Shown here in pieces: positions 38,947-51,297 of a stretch of DNA of 64,000 nt. The notes under the pieces were generated by a model. The model made no database searches and was not told where the DNA came from. It worked only from the letters and a program-made list of their open reading frames with translations. Position 1 is the stretch's first letter, and the number at the start of each line of letters is the position of its first letter. Source of the DNA: Pedobacter puniceum (lineage in GTDB: Bacteria > Bacteroidota > Bacteroidia > Sphingobacteriales > Sphingobacteriaceae); contig NZ_WKJI01000003.1 in assembly GCF_009674685.1 (NCBI RefSeq), positions 186,001 through 250,000 of the forward strand, written 5' to 3'. Position numbers and translations under genes: made by a program.

Positions 38947-40818
38947 CTAGCCTTTATTAAAGCGTTCTGCTAATTCTTCTAAGCTTATTTTTACTATAAT
39001 TTGTTTGCCATTAATGGCGATGCCTGGCATTTGACAAGCAAATAGCTGGTCTATTAAATCAACCATCTCCTCTTCGCTTAATTTAACCCCACTTTTGATA
39101 GCTGTATTTTTAGCAAGTGTTCTGGCTAAATTATCTCTCTTATCAAGCTTTAAAACGGTATGATTGTTTTTAAAACCTTCAATTAATTCTTCCATCATGG
39201 TAGCCAAATTGTTGTTTTCAGGAATATCTGCCGGTACACCTTCTATGACTAATGTGTTTTTACCAAACTCTCTAATCTGGAAACCTAATGCCTGAAAAGC
39301 AGGAAGCAATTCGGTTACCAAAGCGTAATCTGTGGTGTTTAAAGTTATGGTTTGCGGAAATAAACTTTGCTGACTTAAACCTTTATGATTTTCTAATTGT
39401 GATAAAAAGCGTTCATATAAAATGCGCTCATGCGCCGCTTGTTGGTCAATCAGCATAAAGCCAGACTTTATCGAAGAAATAATATATTTCTGGTGTAGCT
39501 GAAAAACCTGTCTGCTTAAAGTTTTGGTTTCTGTAGCCCCGTTTACTGCCGAAGAAATGGTATTTGATGATGAATCTAAATCAAAAAAAGTTTGAACAGA
39601 CTTTTGTTCTTTGTTAATCTCATATAAAGTATCCCAATTTTGAGGAATGGCCTTTTTCTCTCCTAAATCTCTTAAAAAAGGTATTTCTCTGTCTTTTTTC
39701 TTTTCATCCGAAAAGGGATTAAAATTAGGATTAAATTGTATGGCTGGTGGCGTTATATCTTCCCACGCTTTCTGTGATATCATTCTCTCAAAACCAGTTT
39801 CCTGATTAAAATCTAAAGTAGGCGTAATGTTATACCTCCCTAAAGAACGCTTTACAGCAGACCTAATGATAGCATAAATGGCTTTTTCATCCTGATATTT
39901 AATTTCTGTTTTAGTAGGATGAACATTAATGTCGATTTTAGATGGGTCTATCTCAATAAATAACACATATAACGGGAAACAGTCGTCGGGCAGTAAATCC
40001 TCGTAAGCGGTCATCACTGCATGGTTTAAATAAGGGTCTTTAATAAAACGCTTATTTACAAAAAAGAACTGATCGCCTCGTGTTTTCTTAGCAAAAGATG
40101 GCTTCCCAATAAAACCTTTTACCTCAATAATACTGGTTTCCTCGTCTAAAGGGACAAGCCTTTCATTGTAATTATTCCCTAAAAGATGAATGATACGTTG
40201 TTTTAGCTGCGTTTGCGGCAAATGGTAAACCTCTTGCCCATCGTGGTGAAGGGTAAAATGTATTTCTGGATGTGCTAATGCTACCCGTTGAAATTCATCA
40301 ATAATATGACGCATTTCTACTGGGTTACTTTTTAAAAAATTTCTCCTAGCGGGGATATTATAAAAAAGGTTTTTAACCGATATAGATGTGCCAGCCGTTG
40401 TAGCACAAGGTTCCTGACTTAAAACTTCAGAGCCTTCTATTACCAGTTTTGTGCCTAATTCGTCTTCGTGTTTTCTGGTCTTAAGTTCAACCTGAGCAAC
40501 TGCGGCAATAGAAGCCATAGCTTCGCCTCTAAAGCCCATGGTTTTAATGGCAAATAAATCCTCAGCTTTCCTGATTTTTGATGTTGCATGTCGCTCAAAG
40601 CACATTCTTGCATCTGTAGCGCTCATCCCACAACCGTTATCAATAATTTGGATAAGGGTTTTACCAGCATCTTTTACAATCAGTTGGATTTTATCGGCAC
40701 CTGCATCTATCGCATTTTCTATGAGTTCTTTTACAGCAGAAGCGGGTCTTTGTACTACCTCACCGGCAGCAATTTGGTTAGCAACCGAGTCTGGTAAAAG
40801 TTGTATTATATCTGGCAT
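38947..40818 (-). CDS. mutL: DNA mismatch repair protein MutL
   Basis: A 623-residue MutL. The GHKL ATPase domain begins IIQLLPDSVANQIAAGEVVQRP and has ELIENAIDAGA, DNGCGM and GFRGEAMASI. In the dimerisation domain the endonuclease motif DQxAxxExxxxE is present as DQQAAHERILYE (about residue 450). The C-terminal zinc-site motif CPHGRP is replaced by AINGKQ. Nicking activity is therefore uncertain. MutL couples MutS mismatch recognition to strand removal. It is first in the run mutL-rhomboid-rhomboid-EEP. Confidence 0.97.
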   Translation of the reverse strand: MPDIIQLLPDSVANQIAAGEVVQRPASAVKELIENAIDAGADKIQLIVKDAGKTLIQIIDNGCGMSATDARMCFERHATSKIRKAEDLFAIKTMGFRGEAMASIAAVAQVELKTRKHEDELGTKLVIEGSEVLSQEPCATTAGTSISVKNLFYNIPARRNFLKSNPVEMRHIIDEFQRVALAHPEIHFTLHHDGQEVYHLPQTQLKQRIIHLLGNNYNERLVPLDEETSIIEVKGFIGKPSFAKKTRGDQFFFVNKRFIKDPYLNHAVMTAYEDLLPDDCFPLYVLFIEIDPSKIDINVHPTKTEIKYQDEKAIYAIIRSAVKRSLGRYNITPTLDFNQETGFERMISQKAWEDITPPAIQFNPNFNPFSDEKKKDREIPFLRDLGEKKAIPQNWDTLYEINKEQKSVQTFFDLDSSSNTISSAVNGATETKTLSRQVFQLHQKYIISSIKSGFMLIDQQAAHERILYERFLSQLENHKGLSQQSLFPQTITLNTTDYALVTELLPAFQALGFQIREFGKNTLVIEGVPADIPENNNLATMMEELIEGFKNNHTVLKLDKRDNLARTLAKNTAIKSGVKLSEEEMVDLIDQLFACQMPGIAINGKQIIVKISLEELAERFNKG

Positions 40819-40978
40819 ATCTTATATGCTGCTAATTTATCAAAATTTTAAGGCTCTTTAATCAGTACTATCCCATTTTTTAAATTTTATATAAGATAAG
40901 TACCTATATAATATTTAATTTACCACTTATTTTAAAATACTGTATCCAACAAAATAAAAAGCTGGTCGTTAAATTATC

Positions 40979-42775
40979 ATGAAACAAGTCTTAAGTGTAA
41001 TAGCTTTAATAATTTTTATAGCCGTACAAGCTTGTGGTCAAGCTCAACAAAATCAAAGGTTTAGCTCAGAACAAATACAAGAAGCCAAGAATAATTTGGT
41101 ACTTCTAAATAATCAGGAGCAAATTATTCCTTTAAAATCATTACAGGATTTAAAAATTGCTAGTGTAACTTTTGATTTTCAAGAAGTTGCGCTTTTAGAT
41201 AGCATATTGGCTAAATACCATAGCATACATAGAGAAAATGGGAATGCTTTTTTGAATGATTTAAACGGATTAGAAGACGATTTAAAGTTTTACAATCTCA
41301 TCATCATCACTTTAACCAACAAAAGCTTAAGCCAGCCTCAGCTACTTAATTTTATAACAGATTTAGCTACTAAGAAAACTTTAATTATTAATTTTTTAGG
41401 AGATGGAGCTTTACTTTCTAAACTTGATAGTATTAAACAACCTATTTTGTGGAGTAATCAAGTTAATGCGGCAACGGCTTTTGTAGCTGCTCAAGCTATA
41501 TTTGGTGGTTTGTCAATCTCAGCAAAATTAAAAGAAAACTATGGCAACCAATTTAAATTAAATGATGGTTTTGAAACACAAGCTATAAGATTAGGCTTTG
41601 CATTGCCAGAAGAGTTAGGTTTACAAACTAAAGATTTTGAAAATATAGATGCCATAGCGGAAGAAGCCATACAAAAAAAGGCTGCGCCTGGTGCAGTAGT
41701 GCTTGTAGCTAAAAATGGTAAAATTATTTACAACAAAGCTTACGGAAAACATACTTATCAATCAGAAACTTTAATGGGTGTTGATGATATTTTTGATTTA
41801 GCATCTATCACTAAAATTGCCGCAACAACGGTAGCTGCAATGAAATTACAAGAAGAAGGTAAGCTCAATCTTGATGCTCCGTTGGCTAATTACATAGCCA
41901 GAACACGTAGAACAAATAAGGCTAACATTAAGGTGAAAGATGTGATGCTGCATCAGGCTGGTTTTGTGCCATTTATTCCTTTTTATAAGGATATAGAGAA
42001 AAATGCGTTTAGTAGAATCGCAGATGAAAATTATACGGTTAAAGTAGCTGATAGTTTTTACCTCAATACCAATTATTACCGAGATGTTATGTGGAAACAA
42101 ATGTTGGCAAGTCCACTAAAAACACCTGGTAAATACGTGTATAGCGATTTAAGTATGTATTTCATGAAAGAAATTATAGAAAATATTACACAACAGCCTA
42201 TTCCTAATTATGTAAGCCAGAACTTTTATAATAAATTAGGTTTAGAAACTATGGTTTTTAACCCTAGAGATAAGTTTAAAAAAGGTCAAATTGTACCTAC
42301 CGAAATAGATAATTATTTCAGAAAAACACTGCTTTGGGGTTATGTACATGATCAAGGTGCAGCTATGGCTGGAGGTGTTGCAGGGCATGCAGGTTTGTTT
42401 TCTAATGCTACAGATTTAGCTATATTGATGCAAATGCTTTTAAATAAAGGAAGCTATGGCGGCGAACAGTTTTTAAAACCAGAGACAGTTGAACTTTTTA
42501 CCCAGCAGCAATCGCCATTAAGTAGGAGAGGTTTAGGTTTTGATAGAAAAGACCCAGATTTATCAAAAAAATATCCATCGGCTTTAGCTTCTCAAGAAAC
42601 TTTTGGTCATACTGGTTATACAGGCACTTGTGTATGGGTAGATCCTGCTAATCAGCTCATTTACATATTTTTATCAAATAGGGTTCATCCACAAGTCAAT
42701 AATAAATTGATTGATTTAAATATCCGTTCTCGGATTCATGACGAAATTTATAAAGCTATTTCTAAAACCAAATAA
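40979..42775 (+). CDS. Lipoprotein: GH3 C-terminal-like domain fused to a serine beta-lactamase-fold hydrolase
   Basis: A 598-residue lipoprotein (lipobox VQAC, C19). Residues about 28-215 look like the C-terminal domain of a GH3 glycosidase: AKNNLVLLNNQEQIIPL, then AQAIFGGLSISAKL, then IRLGFALPEELGL. The catalytic GH3 TIM barrel is absent. Residues about 220-595 are a class C beta-lactamase/DD-peptidase fold with S276-IT-K279, YSD in place of the YxN motif, and HTG in FGHTGYTGT. Longer Bacteroidota homologues carry a full GH3 domain plus this hydrolase. Likely substrates are cell-wall fragments. Confidence 0.85.
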   Translation: MKQVLSVIALIIFIAVQACGQAQQNQRFSSEQIQEAKNNLVLLNNQEQIIPLKSLQDLKIASVTFDFQEVALLDSILAKYHSIHRENGNAFLNDLNGLEDDLKFYNLIIITLTNKSLSQPQLLNFITDLATKKTLIINFLGDGALLSKLDSIKQPILWSNQVNAATAFVAAQAIFGGLSISAKLKENYGNQFKLNDGFETQAIRLGFALPEELGLQTKDFENIDAIAEEAIQKKAAPGAVVLVAKNGKIIYNKAYGKHTYQSETLMGVDDIFDLASITKIAATTVAAMKLQEEGKLNLDAPLANYIARTRRTNKANIKVKDVMLHQAGFVPFIPFYKDIEKNAFSRIADENYTVKVADSFYLNTNYYRDVMWKQMLASPLKTPGKYVYSDLSMYFMKEIIENITQQPIPNYVSQNFYNKLGLETMVFNPRDKFKKGQIVPTEIDNYFRKTLLWGYVHDQGAAMAGGVAGHAGLFSNATDLAILMQMLLNKGSYGGEQFLKPETVELFTQQQSPLSRRGLGFDRKDPDLSKKYPSALASQETFGHTGYTGTCVWVDPANQLIYIFLSNRVHPQVNNKLIDLNIRSRIHDEIYKAISKTK

Positions 42776-42835
42776 AACATTCTGAACCAAAAGACCTTTT
42801 ATTACGTAGATTACGACAATAAACATCAAATAACT

Positions 42836-43306
42836 ATGATTAAAAGAATAGCTTTTATAACGGGGGCAAGTGTTTTATTAGCGGCCTGCTCACCAAAAAC
42901 AACTAATCCTGATATTTTAAAATTAGAGAAACAGGAACAAGTTTTAAGTTTAACATCAAAAGTTAATAGTTTAAAATTAGATTTAGAAAAAGAGTTGGTT
43001 AAAATTCAAGAATTATCCAAACAAGTAGAAACTGTTAATGAGGATGTATCAAAATCTTCAAAAGAAGCAAAATCTATCTCAGATGATTTAAGTAATAACC
43101 CTGGAGACACTAAATTATCTTCTAAAGCAGATAGAGCGGCCAAAGCAGCTGCAAGAGATGCAAAAAAGGCCCGTAAACTAAATGATGCTTTAAATAAGTC
43201 AAATAAAAAGGTAGAGAGCTTACAGAAAGAGATTGAAAAGACACAGCAAGAACTTAATACTTTAGACCAGAAAGTAGATTTTGTGCCTACACAAGAAGCT
43301 AAGTAA
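42836..43306 (+). CDS. Coiled-coil lipoprotein
   Basis: A 156-residue lipoprotein, lipobox LLAAC (cysteine near residue 18). The rest is almost entirely charged helix with heptads of Leu, Val and Ile (KLEKQEQVLSLTSKVNSLKL, VKIQELSKQVETVNEDV, KVESLQKEIEKTQQELNTL), so a coiled coil is very likely. The middle has an Ala/Lys-rich stretch (KADRAAKAAARDAKKARK). I recognise no family. It might act as a periplasmic spacer or cell-wall tether, like Lpp, but this is inference. A terminator lies directly after the stop. Confidence 0.8.
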   Translation: MIKRIAFITGASVLLAACSPKTTNPDILKLEKQEQVLSLTSKVNSLKLDLEKELVKIQELSKQVETVNEDVSKSSKEAKSISDDLSNNPGDTKLSSKADRAAKAAARDAKKARKLNDALNKSNKKVESLQKEIEKTQQELNTLDQKVDFVPTQEAK

Positions 43307-43307
43307 A

Positions 43308-43340
43308 AAACAAGCGCTTATTTTAAGCGCTTGTTTTTTT
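43308..43340 (+). terminator. Intrinsic terminator after the coiled-coil lipoprotein gene
   Basis: ACAAGCGCTTA (43310-43320) and its complement (43324-43334) form a perfect stem with a 3-base loop; flanking A and T runs extend it. A T-run reaches 43340. Confidence 0.9.
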
Positions 43341-43434
43341 GTTTATTCCCTTTATTAATTGTTACAAAAGGCTAACACAACAATTCTAATTAAATTACTT
43401 AATTTGCTGTACATTTAAGAAGGATGATTATAAA

Positions 43435-44574
43435 ATGAGAATAGGTATTGTTTGTTATCCCACGTTTGGCGGAAGCGGTGTTGTAGCTACAGAATTAGGC
43501 AAGGCACTTGCTGATAATGGCCATCAGGTTCATTTTATAACCTACAGTCAGCCTGCTCGTTTAGATTTCTTTTCAGAAAATTTATTCTATCATGAAGTTT
43601 CTGTTTCAAATTATCCACTTTTTGATTACGCCCCATATGAGTTAGCTTTATCTAGTAAGATGGTTGATGTTGCCAGATTCGAAAAACTCGATATTTTACA
43701 TGTTCATTATGCTATTCCACATGCATCGGCAGCGTTTATGGCGAAGCAAATTTTAGCAACTTATGGTATACACATCCCCGTAGTTACTACGCTGCATGGT
43801 ACAGATATTACTTTGGTAGGGAAAGATTTAACCTACAAACCTGTTGTTACTTTTTCCATCAACCAATCAGACGGGGTTACAGCCGTTTCTGAGGATTTGA
43901 AAAAAGCTACCTATGACCATTTTGATATCCAAAGAGAAATACGTGTAATACCCAATTTTATAGATTTACAAAGATTTAACTTAAAAGCTAAAGATCATTT
44001 TAAAAAGGCCATAGCACCATTTGGAGAAAGAATTTTAGTACATACGTCAAACTTTAGAAAAGTTAAGCGTACACAAGATGTTGTACATATTTTTAAGCAA
44101 ATCTTAACTAAAGTGCCAGCTAAACTTTTAATGGTAGGCGATGGTCCAGAGCGTGTAAATTGTGAGGCTTTATGTCGTGAGTTAGAAGTTTGCGAACATG
44201 TACGTTTCTTGGGTAAGCAAGATGCGGTAGAAGAGATTCTATCAGTATCTGATTTGTTTTTGATGCCTTCAGAGTCTGAAAGTTTCGGATTAGCGGCACT
44301 TGAAGCCATGGCTTGTAAAGTGCCAGTAATATCATCAAATACTGGAGGCTTACCAGAGCTTAATGTAAACGGTGTTACCGGATTCTTGAATAATGTTGGC
44401 GACGTAGATGGTATGGCTAATAACGCTATCTATATTTTACAAGACAACCAAATTCTTCAAAAGTTTAAAGAAAATGCCATCAATAGGGCTAAAGAGTTTG
44501 ACTTAAGCCTTATACTACCCGTTTATGAGAAATATTACGAAGAAGTAATAGAAAAGAGTAAAACAACTATTTAA
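43435..44574 (+). CDS. bshA: N-acetyl-alpha-D-glucosaminyl L-malate synthase
   Basis: A 379-residue GT4 glycosyltransferase that joins GlcNAc from UDP-GlcNAc to L-malate, the first step of bacillithiol synthesis. The family start is RIGIVCYPTFGGSGVVATEL. HVHYAIPHASAA, TTLHGTDITLVG, then the donor-site SESFGLAALEAMACKVPVI with the E-x7-E pair follow. Length matches BshA (about 375-385). BshB and BshC are not in the window, but the YtxJ bacilliredoxin gene at 57.2 kb supports use of bacillithiol in this organism. Confidence 0.93.
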   Translation: MRIGIVCYPTFGGSGVVATELGKALADNGHQVHFITYSQPARLDFFSENLFYHEVSVSNYPLFDYAPYELALSSKMVDVARFEKLDILHVHYAIPHASAAFMAKQILATYGIHIPVVTTLHGTDITLVGKDLTYKPVVTFSINQSDGVTAVSEDLKKATYDHFDIQREIRVIPNFIDLQRFNLKAKDHFKKAIAPFGERILVHTSNFRKVKRTQDVVHIFKQILTKVPAKLLMVGDGPERVNCEALCRELEVCEHVRFLGKQDAVEEILSVSDLFLMPSESESFGLAALEAMACKVPVISSNTGGLPELNVNGVTGFLNNVGDVDGMANNAIYILQDNQILQKFKENAINRAKEFDLSLILPVYEKYYEEVIEKSKTTI

Positions 44575-44617
44575 TTTTTTATTGATTCCTTAATAAGCCA
44601 AAAATAATAATCTAATT

Positions 44618-44664
44618 TTTGTTGCAACAAAATTGCATTTACATATATTTGCAACATTGTTTCA
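44618..44664 (+). promoter_or_regulatory. Promoter with two 15-bp palindromic operators (probable Zur site)
   Basis: A Bacteroidota-type promoter has TTTG at 44618-44621 and TATATTTG at 44644-44651. Two 15-bp sites of 7-1-7 form overlap it: TGCAACA-A-AATTGCA at 44623-44637 and TGCAACA-T-TGTTTCA at 44650-44664. The left halves are identical and 27 bp apart. Site 1 fills the spacer and site 2 covers the -7 end and the transcription start, ideal for repression. The 15-bp form is that of Fur-family regulators. The zinc-binding gene downstream points to Zur; that step is inference. Confidence 0.72.
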
Positions 44665-44679
44665 CTTATAAAAATAATT

Positions 44680-45879
44680 ATGTCAACAAAAATTAAATTC
44701 TACTTATTTATTTTTCTAATCACTGCTTTTGCTGCTTGTAAGAAAGATAATGCAACAGATCCTCAAAAAATTGAAGAAAACAGATTTGTAAGGTTATTAG
44801 TTGCAGATGCTCAGGATAAAACCCTTACTTTAATTAATCCATTAACAAATCAGCAATCTACTTTTCAAGCCCAATTTGCAGTTAACAATATCTATCCAAC
44901 AGCAAGTAAACGTTTTGCTGGGATTATAAATGCTACTAATAATCATGTAAGTTTTTTTGATTCTGGTGTTGAGGCTCATGGAGACCATGCACATTTAAAA
45001 GGCATACCTAAATGGGCTTTAACCACTTCTTTAGCAGTTAAACCAACTCATTTTTATTCTTTGGGTAATGAGATAGCTATTTTTAATGATGGAGATGCAT
45101 CTTTAAGCTTAATTACAGAAGATAAATTGCATACACAAGCACAAACCAACCATGTTGTGGTAGATAGGGCTCATCATGGTGCAGTGGTTATATTTAACAA
45201 TGGTAGTTACGCTGTAACAGAAAAGGATAATAGCATTAGCGGAGCTTTGCCTGAAAGAGTTAAGATTGTTAATGCTACTGGTCAAGTACTATATACTTCT
45301 ACTGTTGCTACAAAAGGTATACACGGCGAGGCAGGAAATGGAAGTACTGCTATTTTTGGTTCAGTTGGTGGCATGTTAGTTGTAAAAAGTGATGGAACAC
45401 AAAATCTTATAACTTGGCCATCAGAGATAGGTGAGGCTAATTGGCTTTCTACCATACATTACGGTAAGGCATCAAATAAATTCTTAGGTTTCAAATCAAA
45501 ATTTGGGGCATATATATTAAATCCAGTTAATGATAGCTTTACCAAAGTAGTAACGGAAAATAATATTAGAAGTGCTGTATTTGATGCCGAGGGGAAAGAT
45601 ATATTGGTTTTGTTAGAAGATGGTACTGTACAATTATACAGTGGTTCTTCTTTAGCTAAATTACAAGAAGTTAAGTTGAATATTACTTTCGGTACTGGAG
45701 CTTTAGTACCTAATATTACCGCTACAAAGCATTTTGTGTATGTAACTAACCCAAATGGTGGAGAAATTATTCGGTTAGAACGTGATAACTTTTCTATACA
45801 AAATAAAATTCCTGTAGTTGGTAAACCAGCTAAAATAATCATGCTAGGAGCTGATTTTGATGATGAAGGAAATCATTAA
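44680..45879 (+). CDS. AztD-like zinc-binding lipoprotein (beta-propeller metallochaperone)
   Basis: A 399-residue lipoprotein (lipobox AFAAC, C20). The body is a run of short beta strands with turns (LLVADAQDKTLTLINP and similar), like a WD-type propeller. Histidines cluster in H100-GDHAH-105 (SGVEAHGDHAHLKG), H124 (PTHFY), H165-H166 (RAHHGAVV) and H215 (GIHGEAG). The same order of SG..xHGDHA, HF, HHG and HGEA occurs in the periplasmic zinc chaperone AztD, which hands zinc to an ABC transporter. No AztABC transporter is adjacent. Similarity is from memory of the family and should be confirmed. Expression is probably zinc-controlled by the operators just upstream. Confidence 0.8.
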   Translation: MSTKIKFYLFIFLITAFAACKKDNATDPQKIEENRFVRLLVADAQDKTLTLINPLTNQQSTFQAQFAVNNIYPTASKRFAGIINATNNHVSFFDSGVEAHGDHAHLKGIPKWALTTSLAVKPTHFYSLGNEIAIFNDGDASLSLITEDKLHTQAQTNHVVVDRAHHGAVVIFNNGSYAVTEKDNSISGALPERVKIVNATGQVLYTSTVATKGIHGEAGNGSTAIFGSVGGMLVVKSDGTQNLITWPSEIGEANWLSTIHYGKASNKFLGFKSKFGAYILNPVNDSFTKVVTENNIRSAVFDAEGKDILVLLEDGTVQLYSGSSLAKLQEVKLNITFGTGALVPNITATKHFVYVTNPNGGEIIRLERDNFSIQNKIPVVGKPAKIIMLGADFDDEGNH

Positions 45880-45908
45880 GAAATACGAATAAATAGGTGT
45901 GTTAGTGA

Positions 45909-45942
45909 AAAAGGCAGCTCATTCATGTAATGGCTGCCTTTT
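45909..45942. terminator. Bidirectional terminator between the AztD-like gene and the pseudouridine synthase
   Basis: AAAAGGCAGC (45909-45918) pairs with 45933-45942; an inner CATT/AATG pair lengthens the stem past a one-base bulge. A and T runs flank both sides. It lies between two convergent stop codons. Confidence 0.88.
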
Positions 45943-45944
45943 GT

Positions 45945-47342
45945 TTATTTAATGAGGTGTTTAAGGTTGATAATTTCCTGTTCAGATAAATATCTCCATT
46001 TCCCTCTTGGTAAATCTTTTTTGCTTAAACCAGCGTAAATTACACGGTCTAATTTTACTACTTCATAGCCCAAGCTCTCAAAAATTCTTCTTACGATTCT
46101 GTTTTTACCGCTATGAATTTGTATACCAATTTCATTTCTAGCTCCACCTGTAACATAACTCACCGCGTCAGGTTTAATAAAACCATCTTCCAATTCTAAA
46201 CCGAATGCAATTTTATTAAAGTCGCCTTGCGTTAGGTTTCTATCTAACTCAACGTTATAAATTTTAACAATGTTATTTCTTGGGTGAGATAGCTTTTCGG
46301 CTAAATCCCCATCATTAGTCATTAAAAGTAAACCTGTGGTGTTTCTATCTAACCTACCAACCGGATAAATACGTTCTTTGCTAGCTTTATCAACCAATTC
46401 CATCACGGTTTTGCGCTCTTGTGGGTCGTCTGTAGTGGTAATAAAGTCTTTTGGCTTATTGAGTAAAACGTAAACCATTTTTTCACGTTTTAATAACTCT
46501 CCATTATATCGTATTTGGTCTATAGCTGGGTTTACTTTAGCTCCAAGTTCTGATACTACAACACCATTAACACTAACTACACCCGCTGCAATTAATTCAT
46601 CCGCTTTTCTTCTAGAGCAAATTCCAGAATTGGCAATGTATCTGTTTAACCTAATGGTTTCGTCTTCTTTTTTAGTGTTGACTTTAGTTTGTCTAGATCT
46701 TAATCTTACTTGCTCATCTTTTACTTCAGAAAATTCTCCTTGAGGTTCTCTTTTTCTGTACTGACGTGGTTGTTCTCTATCATTTATACGCTCTCTTCTC
46801 TCTCCACCAAAACCGCCTTCTTTTCTATCGCCAAAAGGCTTTCTATCTCCGTAAGATTTTCTCTCTCCACCAAAACCGCCTTCTTTTCTATCGCCAAAAG
46901 GCTTTCTATCTCCGTAAGATTTTCTCTCGCCGCCAAAACCGCCTTCTTTTCTATCGCCAAAAGGCTTTCTATCTCCGTAAGATTTTCTCTCGCCGCCAAA
47001 ACCGCCTTCTTTTCTATCGCCAAAAGGCTTTCTATCTCCATAAGATTTTCTCTCGCCACCAAAACCACCTTCTTTTCTATCGCCAAAAGGCTTTCTATCT
47101 CCGTAAGATTTTCTCTCGCCACCAAAACCGCCTTCTTTTCTATCTCCAAAAGGCTTTCTCTCGCCGTAAGATTTTCTCTCGCCGTTTGAGTTGTCTTTTC
47201 TATCTCCGTAAGGTTTATCTTTTCTGTTTGATGAGCTTTCGCCTGATTGTGGCCTTCTATTTGATGATGAAGATCTGGAAGGTTTATTGCTGTCTCTTCC
47301 GGACTTGTCGTCACGACTGTTCCTGTTTTTGTTGAATGACAT
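45945..47342 (-). CDS. RluB/RsuA-family pseudouridine synthase with a repetitive basic N-terminal tail
   Basis: A 465-residue rRNA pseudouridine synthase. The catalytic part (about 225-465) has an S4 RNA-binding domain (IRLNRYIANSGICSRRKADE) and the synthase core with the catalytic aspartate in VGRLDRNTTGLLLMTNDGD. Residues 1-54 are Ser/Arg/Asn-rich and 55-180 are six copies of a 21-residue unit rich in Gly, Arg, Lys and Asp, certainly disordered. Such RG-rich tails bind RNA non-specifically. The likely target is 23S or 16S rRNA; the exact site is not decidable here. It is divergent from the lytic transglycosylase gene. Confidence 0.92.
   Translation of the reverse strand: MSFNKNRNSRDDKSGRDSNKPSRSSSSNRRPQSGESSSNRKDKPYGDRKDNSNGERKSYGERKPFGDRKEGGFGGERKSYGDRKPFGDRKEGGFGGERKSYGDRKPFGDRKEGGFGGERKSYGDRKPFGDRKEGGFGGERKSYGDRKPFGDRKEGGFGGERKSYGDRKPFGDRKEGGFGGERRERINDREQPRQYRKREPQGEFSEVKDEQVRLRSRQTKVNTKKEDETIRLNRYIANSGICSRRKADELIAAGVVSVNGVVVSELGAKVNPAIDQIRYNGELLKREKMVYVLLNKPKDFITTTDDPQERKTVMELVDKASKERIYPVGRLDRNTTGLLLMTNDGDLAEKLSHPRNNIVKIYNVELDRNLTQGDFNKIAFGLELEDGFIKPDAVSYVTGGARNEIGIQIHSGKNRIVRRIFESLGYEVVKLDRVIYAGLSKKDLPRGKWRYLSEQEIINLKHLIK
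46803..47180. repeat. Six tandem 63-bp repeats inside the pseudouridine synthase gene
   Basis: The repeat codes for residues 55-180, six copies of a 21-residue unit containing KSYGDRKPFGDRKEGGFGG. The inner five copies differ by only a few synonymous bases; the first copy has Glu in place of Asp at one position. Because 63 is a multiple of three, copy-number changes keep the frame. The unit lacks stop codons in several other frames on both strands, which creates long spurious open frames across it. Confidence 0.95.
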
Positions 47343-47488
47343 GTTATCGTTTTTATCCTCTTTTGAGGGCTACAAATGTACTAAAATTATGCAATTTTTC
47401 ATGTTAAAAAACAACGGTATTCTGTATAGAAAACAAGTCAGCTAAAGTGTCTAAAGGAGGTCCCTAAAAACGGTGGTTTTTGTAAGTG

Positions 47489-47520
47489 TTTGATAATGTG
47501 ATTTATATGTTGTATATTTG
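47489..47520 (+). promoter_or_regulatory. Bacteroidota-type promoter of the lytic transglycosylase gene
   Basis: TTTG at 47489-47492, a 20-base spacer and TATATTTG at 47513-47520 match the -33/-7 consensus exactly. It lies 40 bases before the chosen start codon, giving a leader of roughly 33 bases. Confidence 0.75.
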
Positions 47521-47559
47521 CAGCCTTTTAAAAGTTGAGTGGTAATTAAAACAAGATTT

Positions 47560-48321
47560 ATGAAGCGTAAAAGCGTAATAACTTGTAGCTTGATGTTGGT
47601 TGTTTGCTTAATTGCAAAAATGTTTGGTTACAGCTATTCCACCGGGTTTAACAAGATAAATAATCCGCTAAATATTGAGACAATAGAAGATAAAATAACA
47701 AAAGAAAGGTCTCAAGAATTATTAAGTTTTGCCGATGAAATGATCCCTTTAGGGGATGAAAAAATCGACTACAAAATGAAAAGAGCCTTAAAGGCAAACT
47801 CATTTCGTCAGATGCAAACTTTAAAATTACACCAAAGAGCAGAAAGATGGTTTCCAGTGATAGAGCCAGTGCTTAAAGCCTACGGTATTCCAGAAGATTT
47901 TAAGTATATCCCTTTGGTAGAAACCGGTATGGCTCGTGGAAAAGTTTCACCTAAAGGAGCAGCAGGTTTATGGCAATTTATGCCCCAAACAGCCAGAAGC
48001 TACGGTTTAAAAGTGAATAGTAAGGTTGATGAGCGTACAAACGTTTATCTTTCTACAGTTGCAGCAGCAAAATACTTAAGAGATTTATACAAAGTTTTTA
48101 ACAGTTGGACTTTAGTTGCTGCAGCTTACAATGTAGGCGAAGGAAGCTTACAAAGACAAATTAACAGGCAAGGAGAAGATAACTATTTCAGGTTAAAACT
48201 AAACCGCGAAACGGGTAGGTATGTGTACAGCCTTATTTCTATGAAAGAAGTTATAGAAAAACCGGAAAAGTATGGTTATCAAATTAACAATCCTAGGAAG
48301 TTATTGGCTTATCAACCTTAA
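47560..48321 (+). CDS. Lytic transglycosylase, MltD/SLT type
   Basis: A 253-residue exported enzyme. ATG 47560 is chosen over the in-frame GTG at 47539 since it opens directly with a signal/anchor sequence (KRKSVITCSLMLVVCLIAKM). The catalytic glutamate is E121 in PLVETGMARG. SPKGAAGLWQFMPQTARSYG and AAYNVGEGSLQRQI are the standard GH23 blocks. It cuts the MurNAc-GlcNAc bond in peptidoglycan with formation of a 1,6-anhydro end. No LysM domains are attached, unlike full-length MltD. It has its own promoter and terminator. Confidence 0.92.
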   Translation: MKRKSVITCSLMLVVCLIAKMFGYSYSTGFNKINNPLNIETIEDKITKERSQELLSFADEMIPLGDEKIDYKMKRALKANSFRQMQTLKLHQRAERWFPVIEPVLKAYGIPEDFKYIPLVETGMARGKVSPKGAAGLWQFMPQTARSYGLKVNSKVDERTNVYLSTVAAAKYLRDLYKVFNSWTLVAAAYNVGEGSLQRQINRQGEDNYFRLKLNRETGRYVYSLISMKEVIEKPEKYGYQINNPRKLLAYQP

Positions 48322-48344
48322 GAATTAAAATGACAATGAAATAG

Positions 48345-48376
48345 AAAGGTTGGGCCCTGTGGTCCAGCCTTTTTTT
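48345..48376 (+). terminator. Intrinsic terminator after the lytic transglycosylase gene
   Basis: A 12-bp stem (48345-48356 with 48361-48372, two G-U pairs) and a 4-base loop, followed by a T-run to 48376. A TATTTTTG element that could be the uvrA -7 box starts at 48379 directly after it. Confidence 0.9.
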
Positions 48377-48459
48377 GTTATTTTTGCTGCCGAGAAAATC
48401 CTCGCAAATAACAAACAAAAGCATAAATAAAATCTTTATTTAGAGCAGGAAGCTTTTTT

Positions 48460-51297
48460 ATGAGTAAGAAACCTATTGACCTTGGCGAACAAACAGAAGT
48501 AGAAGTTTATGGTGCCAGGGTTCATAATTTAAAGAATATAGATATATCTTTTCCACGTAACCAACTGGTTGTTATTACTGGTTTAAGTGGTTCAGGGAAA
48601 TCTTCTTTAGCATTTGATACCATTTATGCCGAAGGGCAAAGACGTTATATGGAGACTTTCTCTGCCTATTCTCGTCAGTTTATGGGTGGTATGGAGCGCC
48701 CTGATGTAGATAAAATATCAGGCTTAAGCCCCGTTATTGCTATAGAGCAAAAAACTACTTCTAAAAACCCTCGTTCTACGGTAGGTACTATTACAGAGAT
48801 TTATGATTTTATGCGTCTCTTGTTTGCTCGTGTTGGCGATGCATATTCTTATAATACGGGAGAGAAAATGGTTAAAATGTCTGAAGATCAAATTTTAAAT
48901 CAGATTTTAACCCAATTTGATGGCAAGCCTATTAACATTCTAGCACCTGTTGTTAAAGGTAGAAAAGGACATTATCGCGAATTATTTGAGCAGATAAGAA
49001 AGCAAGGTTTTCTAAAAGTGAGGGTAGATGGGGAGATTATGGATGTAACACCTAAAATGCAGGTAGATCGTTATAAAATCCACGATATAGAAACTGTTGT
49101 TGATAGGTTAATTGTTTCTCAAGATGATAAAAAGCGACTGTATGCTTCTATACAGCAAGCTCTAAAAATAGCCAAAGGCATCATCAAAATAGCAGATAAA
49201 GAAAATAATGTGTATCATTTTTCTAAATATTTGATGTGCCCAACTACGGGTATTTCTTATGACGAACCGCAACCTAATACATTTTCCTTTAATTCTCCTT
49301 ACGGGGCTTGTCCGGAGTGTGATGGTTTAGGTTATGTTTTTGATATTGATGAAGAATCGGTTATACCTAATAAGAAATTAAGCATTCTTAATGGTGCTTT
49401 AGCTCCTTTGGGCGAGTACCGCGAAACTTGGATATTTCAAGTGATTAAAGCTTTAGGTAAAAAATACGGTTTCTCTTTATCGCAGCCTATAGAAAAATTA
49501 AGTGATGAGGCTATTCGTATTCTACTACACGGAACTGACGAGTTGGTTACAGTACCTGTAGAGTACAACAAATGGAATGTTGAGAATTACCAGATAGAGT
49601 TTGATGGTATCATCAAAATGCTGGAAGAACAAAACGAGAAAAAAGGAGATGCTGCAACAGATTTAGAAGGTTATCGTATTCTTAAAACCTGTCCTGAGTG
49701 TGATGGTGCTCGTTTAAAGAAAGAATCACTCCATTTTAAGGTTGATGAAAAGAATATCTTCGAGTTAGCCTCTATGGATATCAAAAACCTAAAGCAATGG
49801 TTTGATGGTATTGAAGAAAGACTTTCAGATAGGCAAAATGTAATCGCCAAAGAAATTTTGAAAGAAATAAGAGCCAGAATAGGTTTCTTATTAGATGTAG
49901 GCTTAGAATATCTTACATTGGATAGAACTGCTCGTACACTTTCTGGTGGTGAAGCGCAACGTATTAGACTGGCAACGCAAATAGGTTCTCAGCTTATGAA
50001 TGTGATGTACATTTTAGACGAACCTTCTATCGGGCTACACCAAAGAGATAATGATCGTTTGATAAAAGCTCTAAAAGATCTTAGAGACTTAAGCAATACT
50101 GTTTTGGTGGTAGAGCATGATAAGGATATGATTTTGGAGGCCGATTATGTTATTGATATGGGCCCATCTGCCGGGGTACATGGTGGTGAAGTGGTGGCAC
50201 AAGGCACACCTCAACAACTTTTAAAAACACATACGCTTACAGCTTCCTACCTTAACGGAGAAAAAGGTATTCATATCCCAACAGAAAGAAGGGCTGGAAA
50301 CGGACATGTTTTATCGCTTAAAAAAGCATCAGGTAATAACCTAAAAAATGTAAGTGTTGATTTTCCTCTAGGGAAGTTGATATGTGTTACGGGTGTTTCT
50401 GGAAGTGGAAAATCTACCCTGATAGGAGAAACGCTTTATCCTATTTTAAATAAACATTTCTTTAGGGCTAAAAAACACCCAATGCCCTACAAGGAAATTA
50501 AAGGATTGGAGCATATAGATAAGGTTATAGAAATAGACCAAACCCCTATTGGGCGTACACCACGCTCAAATCCATCAACTTATACAGGTGTTTTTTCTGA
50601 TATTAGAAATCTGTTTGTGGCTTTACCAGAGGCTCAAATTAGAGGTTATAAGCCTGGGCGTTTCTCTTTTAATGTCAAAGGTGGCAGGTGTGAGGCTTGC
50701 CAAGGTGGCGGTATGAAGGTTATTGAAATGAATTTCTTACCTGATGTGCAAGTACCTTGTGAGGAATGTGGAGGAAAGCGCTACAACCGTGAAACATTAG
50801 AAGTACGCTATCGTGGTAAATCCATCTCCGATGTGCTAGATATGAGTATTGAAGATGCTGTTGATTTCTTTGAAAATATCCCTTCCATATATAGAAAAAT
50901 AAAAACTTTGAAAGATGTGGGCTTAGGGTATATCACCTTAGGACAGTCTTCTACCACACTTTCTGGTGGCGAGGCACAAAGGGTTAAATTAGCTACAGAA
51001 CTTTCTAAAAAAGATACAGGTAACACTTTTTATATTCTAGATGAGCCTACAACCGGACTACATTTTGAAGATATTAATGTTTTACTAGGTGTTTTGCAAC
51101 TTTTGGTTGATAAGGGAAATACCGTTTTAGTGATAGAACATAATTTAGATGTAGTAAAAGTTGCTGATTATGTTGTTGATTTAGGTCCAGAAGGTGGCTC
51201 TGGCGGAGGAAATATCGTTTTTGCAGGTACACCAGAAGGATTAGCAAACTGTAAAGACAGCTTTACAGGAAAATTCTTGCAAAAGGAAATGGTTTAA
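48460..51297 (+). CDS. uvrA: Excinuclease ABC subunit A
   Basis: A 945-residue UvrA, the damage-recognition ATPase of nucleotide excision repair. Two ABC modules each carry a Walker A site (GLSGSGKSS at 41-49; GVSGSGKST in the second half) and LSGGEAQR signatures. Zinc modules are seen as CPECDGLGYV and, later, CEACQGGGM with CEECGG. Length is normal. UvrB is not nearby. A TATTTTTG element at 48379-48386 may be its -7 box. Confidence 0.98.
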   Translation: MSKKPIDLGEQTEVEVYGARVHNLKNIDISFPRNQLVVITGLSGSGKSSLAFDTIYAEGQRRYMETFSAYSRQFMGGMERPDVDKISGLSPVIAIEQKTTSKNPRSTVGTITEIYDFMRLLFARVGDAYSYNTGEKMVKMSEDQILNQILTQFDGKPINILAPVVKGRKGHYRELFEQIRKQGFLKVRVDGEIMDVTPKMQVDRYKIHDIETVVDRLIVSQDDKKRLYASIQQALKIAKGIIKIADKENNVYHFSKYLMCPTTGISYDEPQPNTFSFNSPYGACPECDGLGYVFDIDEESVIPNKKLSILNGALAPLGEYRETWIFQVIKALGKKYGFSLSQPIEKLSDEAIRILLHGTDELVTVPVEYNKWNVENYQIEFDGIIKMLEEQNEKKGDAATDLEGYRILKTCPECDGARLKKESLHFKVDEKNIFELASMDIKNLKQWFDGIEERLSDRQNVIAKEILKEIRARIGFLLDVGLEYLTLDRTARTLSGGEAQRIRLATQIGSQLMNVMYILDEPSIGLHQRDNDRLIKALKDLRDLSNTVLVVEHDKDMILEADYVIDMGPSAGVHGGEVVAQGTPQQLLKTHTLTASYLNGEKGIHIPTERRAGNGHVLSLKKASGNNLKNVSVDFPLGKLICVTGVSGSGKSTLIGETLYPILNKHFFRAKKHPMPYKEIKGLEHIDKVIEIDQTPIGRTPRSNPSTYTGVFSDIRNLFVALPEAQIRGYKPGRFSFNVKGGRCEACQGGGMKVIEMNFLPDVQVPCEECGGKRYNRETLEVRYRGKSISDVLDMSIEDAVDFFENIPSIYRKIKTLKDVGLGYITLGQSSTTLSGGEAQRVKLATELSKKDTGNTFYILDEPTTGLHFEDINVLLGVLQLLVDKGNTVLVIEHNLDVVKVADYVVDLGPEGGSGGGNIVFAGTPEGLANCKDSFTGKFLQKEMV

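Follow-up and report, generated by a model that had tools for sequence, protein, structure and literature searches.

The locus considered here raises two linked questions: what controls the gene behind an unusual promoter at positions 44618–44664 of the window (the whole 64,000-nucleotide stretch of Pedobacter puniceum DNA that was analysed), and what the product of that gene does. The promoter comprises TTTG, a likely −33 element by its sequence (44618–44621, on the forward strand like all window features below), and TATATTTG, a likely −7 element (44644–44651), separated by 22 bases, a form usual in Bacteroidota, with the ATG of the next gene at 44680. Two 15-bp palindromes of 7-1-7 form, both predicted boxes for Zur (zinc uptake repressor), overlie these elements. 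Operator 1 (TGCAACA-A-AATTGCA, 44623–44637) reads TGCAACAAAATTGCA and lies in the promoter spacer, and operator 2 (TGCAACA-T-TGTTTCA, 44650–44664) reads TGCAACATTGTTTCA and covers the probable transcription start, its first two bases being the last two of the −7 element. A sequence-only reading had proposed two such palindromes, of the form used by the Fur family, over this promoter, and both are present.

Matches to TGCAACANTGTTGCA with up to three mismatches number seven in the window against a chance mean of 3.58, and because seven are reached in 6 of 100 shuffles, the window count alone is weak, with operators 1 and 2 as the only window sites at one or two mismatches. The same count speaks for reading both palindromes as accidental matches within an AT-rich promoter, as does the behavior of the looser pattern TGHAAYWNWRTTDCA in this genome (9 sites versus 7 in the control). 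Since that pattern hardly exceeds its control, specificity rests on the TGCAACA core, and TGHAAYWNWRTTDCA was dropped as a search pattern over the genus as too unspecific. Against chance, three congeners (G013, G009, and G011) retain both operators, and in two of them (G009 and G011) the DNA upstream of both is unlike that of the window. Conservation thus refutes the chance reading in practice, and further evidence given below leaves it highly improbable. An overlapping 12-bp perfect palindrome, TTGTTGCAACAA (44619–44630), was also considered as the unit. It occurs in G013 and is lost in G009 and G011, where the 7-1-7 form is kept, and was rejected for that reason. An Rfam scan of positions 40000–50000 returned nothing at the gathering threshold, hence no known riboswitch in that range. 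Directly upstream lies the gene for BshA of bacillithiol synthesis (43435–44574, forward strand; NCBIfam 572.9 bits versus a cut-off of 273.7). Bacillithiol is a zinc buffer in Bacillus, and a link between BshA and zinc may here be accidental, because G009 and G011 have other DNA upstream.

The next gene (44680–45879) encodes an AztD-family lipoprotein of 399 amino acids with a signal peptide, a lipobox cysteine (Cys20), and a β-propeller. The likeness to AztD first noticed in the bare sequence was borne out: NCBIfam AztD (NF038015) aligns residues 41–388 to positions 1–353 of 356 (E 1.7e-19), PDB AztD is matched at E 1.9e-18, and a profile search gave E 8.6e-30. An AlphaFold model from a 23-row alignment (pLDDT 84.1, with low confidence at residues 397–399) has AztD as its top Foldseek match, with nine AztD chains at TM 0.77–0.80 on the query, and VIA-align gave Z scores of 40.8, 40.5, and 39.9 for AztD versus 26.2 for the next family. 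The best of these alignments (Z 40.8) covers 355 residues at an rmsd of 2.6, and identity in the structural alignments with AztD is 21–24%. BtuG and XusB are absent among the 50 best matches listed by Foldseek and VIA-align, an observation without weight either way. As the curated NCBIfam cut-off is missed (69.8 bits versus 400), the protein is a distant member of the AztD family and not an AztD in the NCBIfam naming.

Zinc-ligand positions were located by comparing the alignments by eye with the ligands of Paracoccus denitrificans AztD as named in the accessible text of PMC6689063. Site 2 would be formed by H100, H103, and H105 of the motif H-G-D-H-A-H (codons 100–105, 44977–44994) together with the C-terminal H399 (45874–45876), which is taken as the counterpart of H408 from its C-terminal place. 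The site-1 positions are H124 (45049–45051; H124 in P. denitrificans), H166 (45175–45177; H167), and H215 (45322–45324; H218). The alignment with AztD that had been proposed as a check thus came out with all seven of the ligand positions named there kept, one of them as His for Asp, and binding is predicted. Of the 23 aligned proteins, 20 have Asp at position 105 and the remaining three, those of the window clade, have His, and H399 is invariant (23/23); this alignment (A2), with its 23 rows, does not cover all loci and excludes L024, whose frame holds a stop. Cys20 is the only cysteine of the window protein, so the conserved AztD disulfide (Cys214–Cys231) is missing. Judged by ligands and modeled fold, the propeller lipoprotein would bind zinc at both of the sites conserved in AztD. 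Further downstream in the window, at 46709–47340, lies a pseudouridine synthase gene whose N-terminal portion is a long series of repeated GERKSYGDRKPFGDRKEGGF units; this repeat gives rise to long overlapping frames on either strand.

In the 3.9-Mb genome, 11 sites have at most two mismatches to TGCAACANTGTTGCA, versus 3 for the reversed pattern; by the ORF tables, 7 fall within ORFs and the other 4 are promoter sites. The promoter sites outside the window are at C5:6324 and C1:764011. The former, TGCAACAATGTTTCA, precedes an operon for a small His-rich exported protein, a TonB receptor (766 amino acids), and a lipoprotein of 186 amino acids (G000:C5, L080). The latter, TGCAATTATGTTGCA, precedes a COG0523 GTPase gene (G000:C1:764071) whose product matches ZigA (NCBIfam E 1.1e-167, 557.9 bits versus a cut-off of 600). 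Similar sites had been expected near other zinc genes of the same genome, and they were found there, before a ZnuD-like receptor operon and a ZigA-type GTPase gene, the gene set being split across three box-bearing loci. The receptor operon carries the same box in G013, G011, and G009, and zigA carries it in both congeners examined, G013 and G011; G009 was left out of the latter count, and no site in its TGHAAYWNWRTTDCA listing is assignable to zigA. Counted by eye, the distance from the single box to TATATTTG is 33 bp for zigA and 32 bp for the TonB operon, which is the register that the upstream box has in the 38-bp pairs described below. One gene away from the boxed zigA lies a gene for a protein that is Cas9-like by eye from its start (L081:1–3183, G000:C1:758000–761182).

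One contig scan with two short peptide patterns yielded 38 AztD loci, from Pedobacter, Flavobacterium, Hymenobacter, Algoriphagus, Siphonobacter, and other genera. A ZnuD-like TonB receptor gene (at least 100 bits) lies within 8 kb of AztD in 27 of them, and the earlier notion of a stand-alone use of AztD had to be revised for this reason. Such a receptor is missing within 8 kb in the other 11 loci, which include the near relatives of the window (L022 and L023) and one locus that ends at a contig edge (L044); in the window genome itself, the TonB-receptor link is by the shared box. A Zur-like Fur gene is present in 9 of the 38 loci and ZigA in 5, and some loci also carry a small His-rich protein and DUF4625 lipoproteins (an assignment from three neighbor lipoproteins tested), which suggests a zinc function for both. 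The order in Flavobacterium sp. UMI-01 (L049) is Zur (divergent), His-rich protein, TonB receptor, lipoprotein, AztD, and ZigA.

The distribution of AztD-like genes is patchy. They were found in at least 11 of 395 genomes of the phylum, with four candidates scored per genome and the own genome included, 8 of the 11 belonging to one genus, and in 8 of 100 relatives (again including the own genome), one of them as a 51-residue piece. In the congener G017, a piece of this length (L089:8006–8222) follows a TonB-receptor operon with an intact box, TGCAACATAGTTGCA, ahead of it on the coding strand, and is probably a decayed AztD-like copy beside the receptor. In Hymenobacter fodinae (L024:7938–9212), an in-frame stop splits the AztD-like frame into parts of 154 and 250 amino acids, with a box match at the start of both. 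Bacteroidetes bacterium UKL13-3 has its Zur/AztD/ZigA locus twice on one chromosome, ∼1.1 Mb apart (L047 and L048), with identical gene coordinates and near-equal scores. A LolD/FtsX-type ABC pair and a small exported protein are encoded near AztD at L028:9402–12394 and L056:11122–13417, boxed in L028; we take this cluster to resemble the PA4063–4066/Zrg zinc cluster.

We built a matrix on seven sites of the own genus and scanned 34 of the loci with it (555,224 bases, with L047 and L048 as two copies from one genome), excluding L022 and L023 as the source of training sites and L026 and L046 as loci known to come from the own genus; 15 matrices with permuted columns and symmetry kept served as the control. 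At 16 bits or more, 42 matches were found in 26 of the 34 loci versus a permuted mean of 1.07 (maximum 3), which argues against chance, and 8 loci had none. The corresponding figures were 50 matches in 28 loci versus 3.5 (maximum 10) at 14 bits and 29 matches in 19 loci versus 0.27 (maximum 2) at 18 bits. Over all 38 loci, 50 of the 55 matches of at least 14 bits fall outside called ORFs. Four of the five genic ones are in L038, L049, and L056, three loci with a small ORF whose calling or start position is in doubt; the fifth (L042:8918), inside an AztD gene, is probably a chance match. The boxes precede Zur, the His-rich gene, AztD, a MerC-type gene, the LolD/FtsX-type ABC pair, and TonB genes. 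A perfect box in Flavobacterium flevense (L045:2598–2612), between a gene that is Nramp-type by eye and one for a thioredoxin-reductase-like FAD protein, possibly marks a further regulon member.

The paired arrangement recurs as well. Two boxes stand before AztD, 38 and 36 bp apart, in L101 and L102, two genomes of other families that came from the separate search of 395 genomes and thus speak further against chance. Spacing within the pair is 38 bp in 11 of the 38 loci (two of these being the copies in one genome) and 27 bp in the window clade, a difference of 11 bp or about one helical turn; spacings of 39 and 40 bp occur once each, and wider ones in L028 (62 bp) and L056 (84 bp). In all 13 paired promoters tested, TAnnTTTG overlaps the downstream box, its last two bases being the first two of that box, a fixed register not expected of chance palindromes; L022, L023, L045, L048, and the wide pairs of L028 and L056 are outside this set. 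The same fusion of box and −7 element is seen by eye in L102, as TATGTTTG. Since the second operator shares bases with the −7 element, a repressor bound there would have to cover that element. Eight loci of one genus, in which AztD lies behind a same-strand neighbor, have no box of at least 12 bits in 1.5 kb. The 7-1-7 motif is not a product of chance.

Which protein binds the boxes is a separate matter, as two Fur-family proteins were found in the genome, one Zur-like (140 amino acids, near G000:C1:162047) and one Fur/PerR-like (G000:C1:419284). Were the latter the binder, the gene would answer to iron, manganese, or peroxide, and a 7-1-7 box cannot be assigned to either protein by its letters. 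The company the boxes keep makes this improbable: all nine Fur-family genes that neighbor AztD encode proteins closer to the Zur-like protein of the window genome than to the Fur/PerR-like one, and the co-regulated genes (ZigA, ZnuD-like receptor, and AztD) are of zinc types. The three ZnuA-family genes inspected, from Algoriphagus and two other Bacteroidota, differ in that all follow a gene that we take by eye to be MntR-like and have no box, which suggests a role in manganese uptake. Neither the region of the genome's Zur-like gene nor that of its ZIP gene (5 kb around ZIP) has a box of at least 13 bits. The Zur-like protein is the predicted binder of both boxes.

ZnuD is under Zur control, and the co-regulated receptor is related to it at some distance: the match to NCBIfam ZnuD has E 1.5e-31 and 109.8 bits versus a cut-off of 950, with two heme-receptor families scoring better, and its best solved relative is ZnuD 4RDR (E 4.1e-13). 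With this receptor as the query, each of 24 AztD genomes gave at least 1–3 receptors at E 1e-20, from 16–99 first-look candidates per genome of which 44 at most were scored. By coordinate arithmetic, the AztD-linked receptor is among these in 13 of the 24 genomes. In the other 11, the best receptor is boxed (at least 13 bits, at most 1.5 kb upstream) in 7, four of which are the window clade, so that AztD and receptor are neighbors, or the receptor is itself boxed, in 20 of the 24. Counted by receptor loci, 13 of 30 are boxed and 17 have no box of at least 13 bits in the 1.5 kb upstream.

The AztD gene had been described as lacking a neighboring ABC transporter, and this holds; moreover, the genome as a whole yielded neither a ZnuA nor an ABC-3 homologue. 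Searches with PF01297 and PF00950 gave no match in the genome, which is 99.99% complete, while controls were detected in 11 of 14 and 13 of 14, respectively. PF01297 was also without a match in 23 of the 24 AztD genomes searched, the exception being Algoriphagus. In the phylum, PF01297 is found in 174 of 395 genomes, and the matches listed include 2 of the 11 AztD genomes (G269 and G425), on contigs other than that of AztD; we make no claim that AztD and ZnuA exclude each other. Nor is an AztD without an ABC neighbor new in itself, for according to the accessible text of PMC6689063 a ZnuA-family gene lies close to just under half of 577 AztD sequences, which leaves the rest without one. The window genome encodes a ZIP protein, weakly ZupT-like, and since no ZnuA-type ABC importer was found, zinc would enter the cytoplasm through it.

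Building on the computed sites, their conservation, the shared boxes, the AztD family, gene linkage, and the lack of a ZnuA/ABC-3 match, we consider it likely that a Zur regulon is at work in which the AztD-family lipoprotein captures zinc at the outer membrane and exchanges it with a ZnuD-like receptor, with entry by ZIP. The window would carry one of three operons of this predicted regulon. When zinc is replete, Zur-like dimers on both boxes, over the spacer and the −7/start site, would block transcription. In zinc starvation, Zur would leave, and the AztD-family lipoprotein, the His-rich protein, receptor, and lipoprotein of the C5 operon, and the ZigA-type zinc-chaperone GTPase would be made. 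This zinc response applies what is known of the family to the conserved sites. The lipoprotein, whose capture of zinc is suggested by its conserved ligands and fold, would hand the metal to the TonB receptor or take it from it, a partnership to which linkage and shared boxes point. Following passage through the ZIP transporter, ZigA would allocate the zinc.

On which side of the membrane the lipoprotein acts can be read in two ways. By analogy, it may be a periplasmic zinc buffer or chaperone of the same Zur regulon, passing zinc from the receptor via the lipoprotein to ZIP or to exported zinc enzymes, a reading of real weight that falls somewhat short of probable; it overlaps the favored explanation, which leaves the side open, and their odds do not sum to one. 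AztD homologues of Gram-negatives are predominantly periplasmic and AztD donates to AztC, as the accessible text of PMC6689063 has it, and the N terminus of the window protein, C-K-K-D-N, misses the strict K-(D/E)2 export signal. However, the AztC family (ZnuA), the recipient in that system, was found neither in this genome nor in those 23 AztD genomes, and the Flavobacterium relatives start with C-S-N-D-D-D or alike, as do neighbor lipoproteins, near the surface signals SDDFE and SDDDD given in the accessible part of PMC5080379, which CKKDN of the window protein resembles in part. Acidic residues at +2 to +6 do not separate 23 AztD-like N termini from 60 other lipobox proteins, controls that come from the same loci and include many genes of the same operons. 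More tentatively, and again by analogy, the protein could be a surface zinc catcher that forms a lid on the ZnuD-like TonB receptor, a formerly periplasmic donor to an ABC transporter placed under a Zur double box with one box fused to the −7 element, with ZIP and no high-affinity ABC importer behind it. It would then be the zinc equivalent of BtuBG and XusAB.

With either placement, the regulon as predicted, an AztD-like lipoprotein with a zinc-type receptor in place of the usual ABC transporter, points to a little-known route of zinc scavenging. Because box, regulon, and named genes are now given, zinc control and a role of AztD without an ABC transporter are directly testable. A literature search, with most subscription papers outside it, found, among the papers listed, no account of an AztD/receptor Zur system or of a zinc/Zur/TonB/lipoprotein system in Flavobacterium and no mention of AztD together with Bacteroidetes, and DUF4625 was not named. 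In their accessible text, a 2018 review of Zur regulons (PMC6103462) contains neither Bacteroidetes, Bacteroides, Flavobacter-, nor AztD, and the main text of PMC6689063 mentions neither Bacteroidetes nor TonB. The nearest zinc work in Bacteroidota to come up, as far as its accessible text goes, is on ZntR in Riemerella (PMC11960050).

Among known systems, the closest in protein family is AztD of AztABCD (P. denitrificans and Citrobacter koseri; PDB 6CK1, 6CMK, and 6N01), with which the window protein shares a full-length match, the same modeled propeller, and His or Asp at all seven zinc-ligand positions named in the accessible text of PMC6689063. In that text, AztD donates zinc to the binding protein of an ABC transporter, and AztD genes elsewhere are described as often near Fur-family and CobW genes. 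Unlike AztABCD, the system here has a lipoprotein without the disulfide pair, is mostly linked to TonB receptors, and comes with no ZnuA/ABC-3 protein that could be found. ZnuD of Neisseria (PDB 4RDR), a zinc TonB receptor by the titles of the papers on it, is the best solved relative of the co-regulated receptor, which in contrast is far below the curated cut-off and paired with an AztD-like lipoprotein. The Zur regulons of Proteobacteria, for example that of Caulobacter with its TonB receptors (PMC4176598, accessible text), likewise place outer-membrane receptor genes under Zur, whereas the boxes described here follow TGCAACA-N-TGTTGCA and the genome searches gave no ZnuA. Within the same phylum, the Bacteroides systems BtuBG and XusAB also unite a propeller lipoprotein with a TonB transporter, and their ligands, B12 and ferric siderophores according to the accessible text of PMC10404256 and PMC13142918, set them apart. 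The likeness to BtuBG and XusAB is one of working principle, an analogy and not membership.
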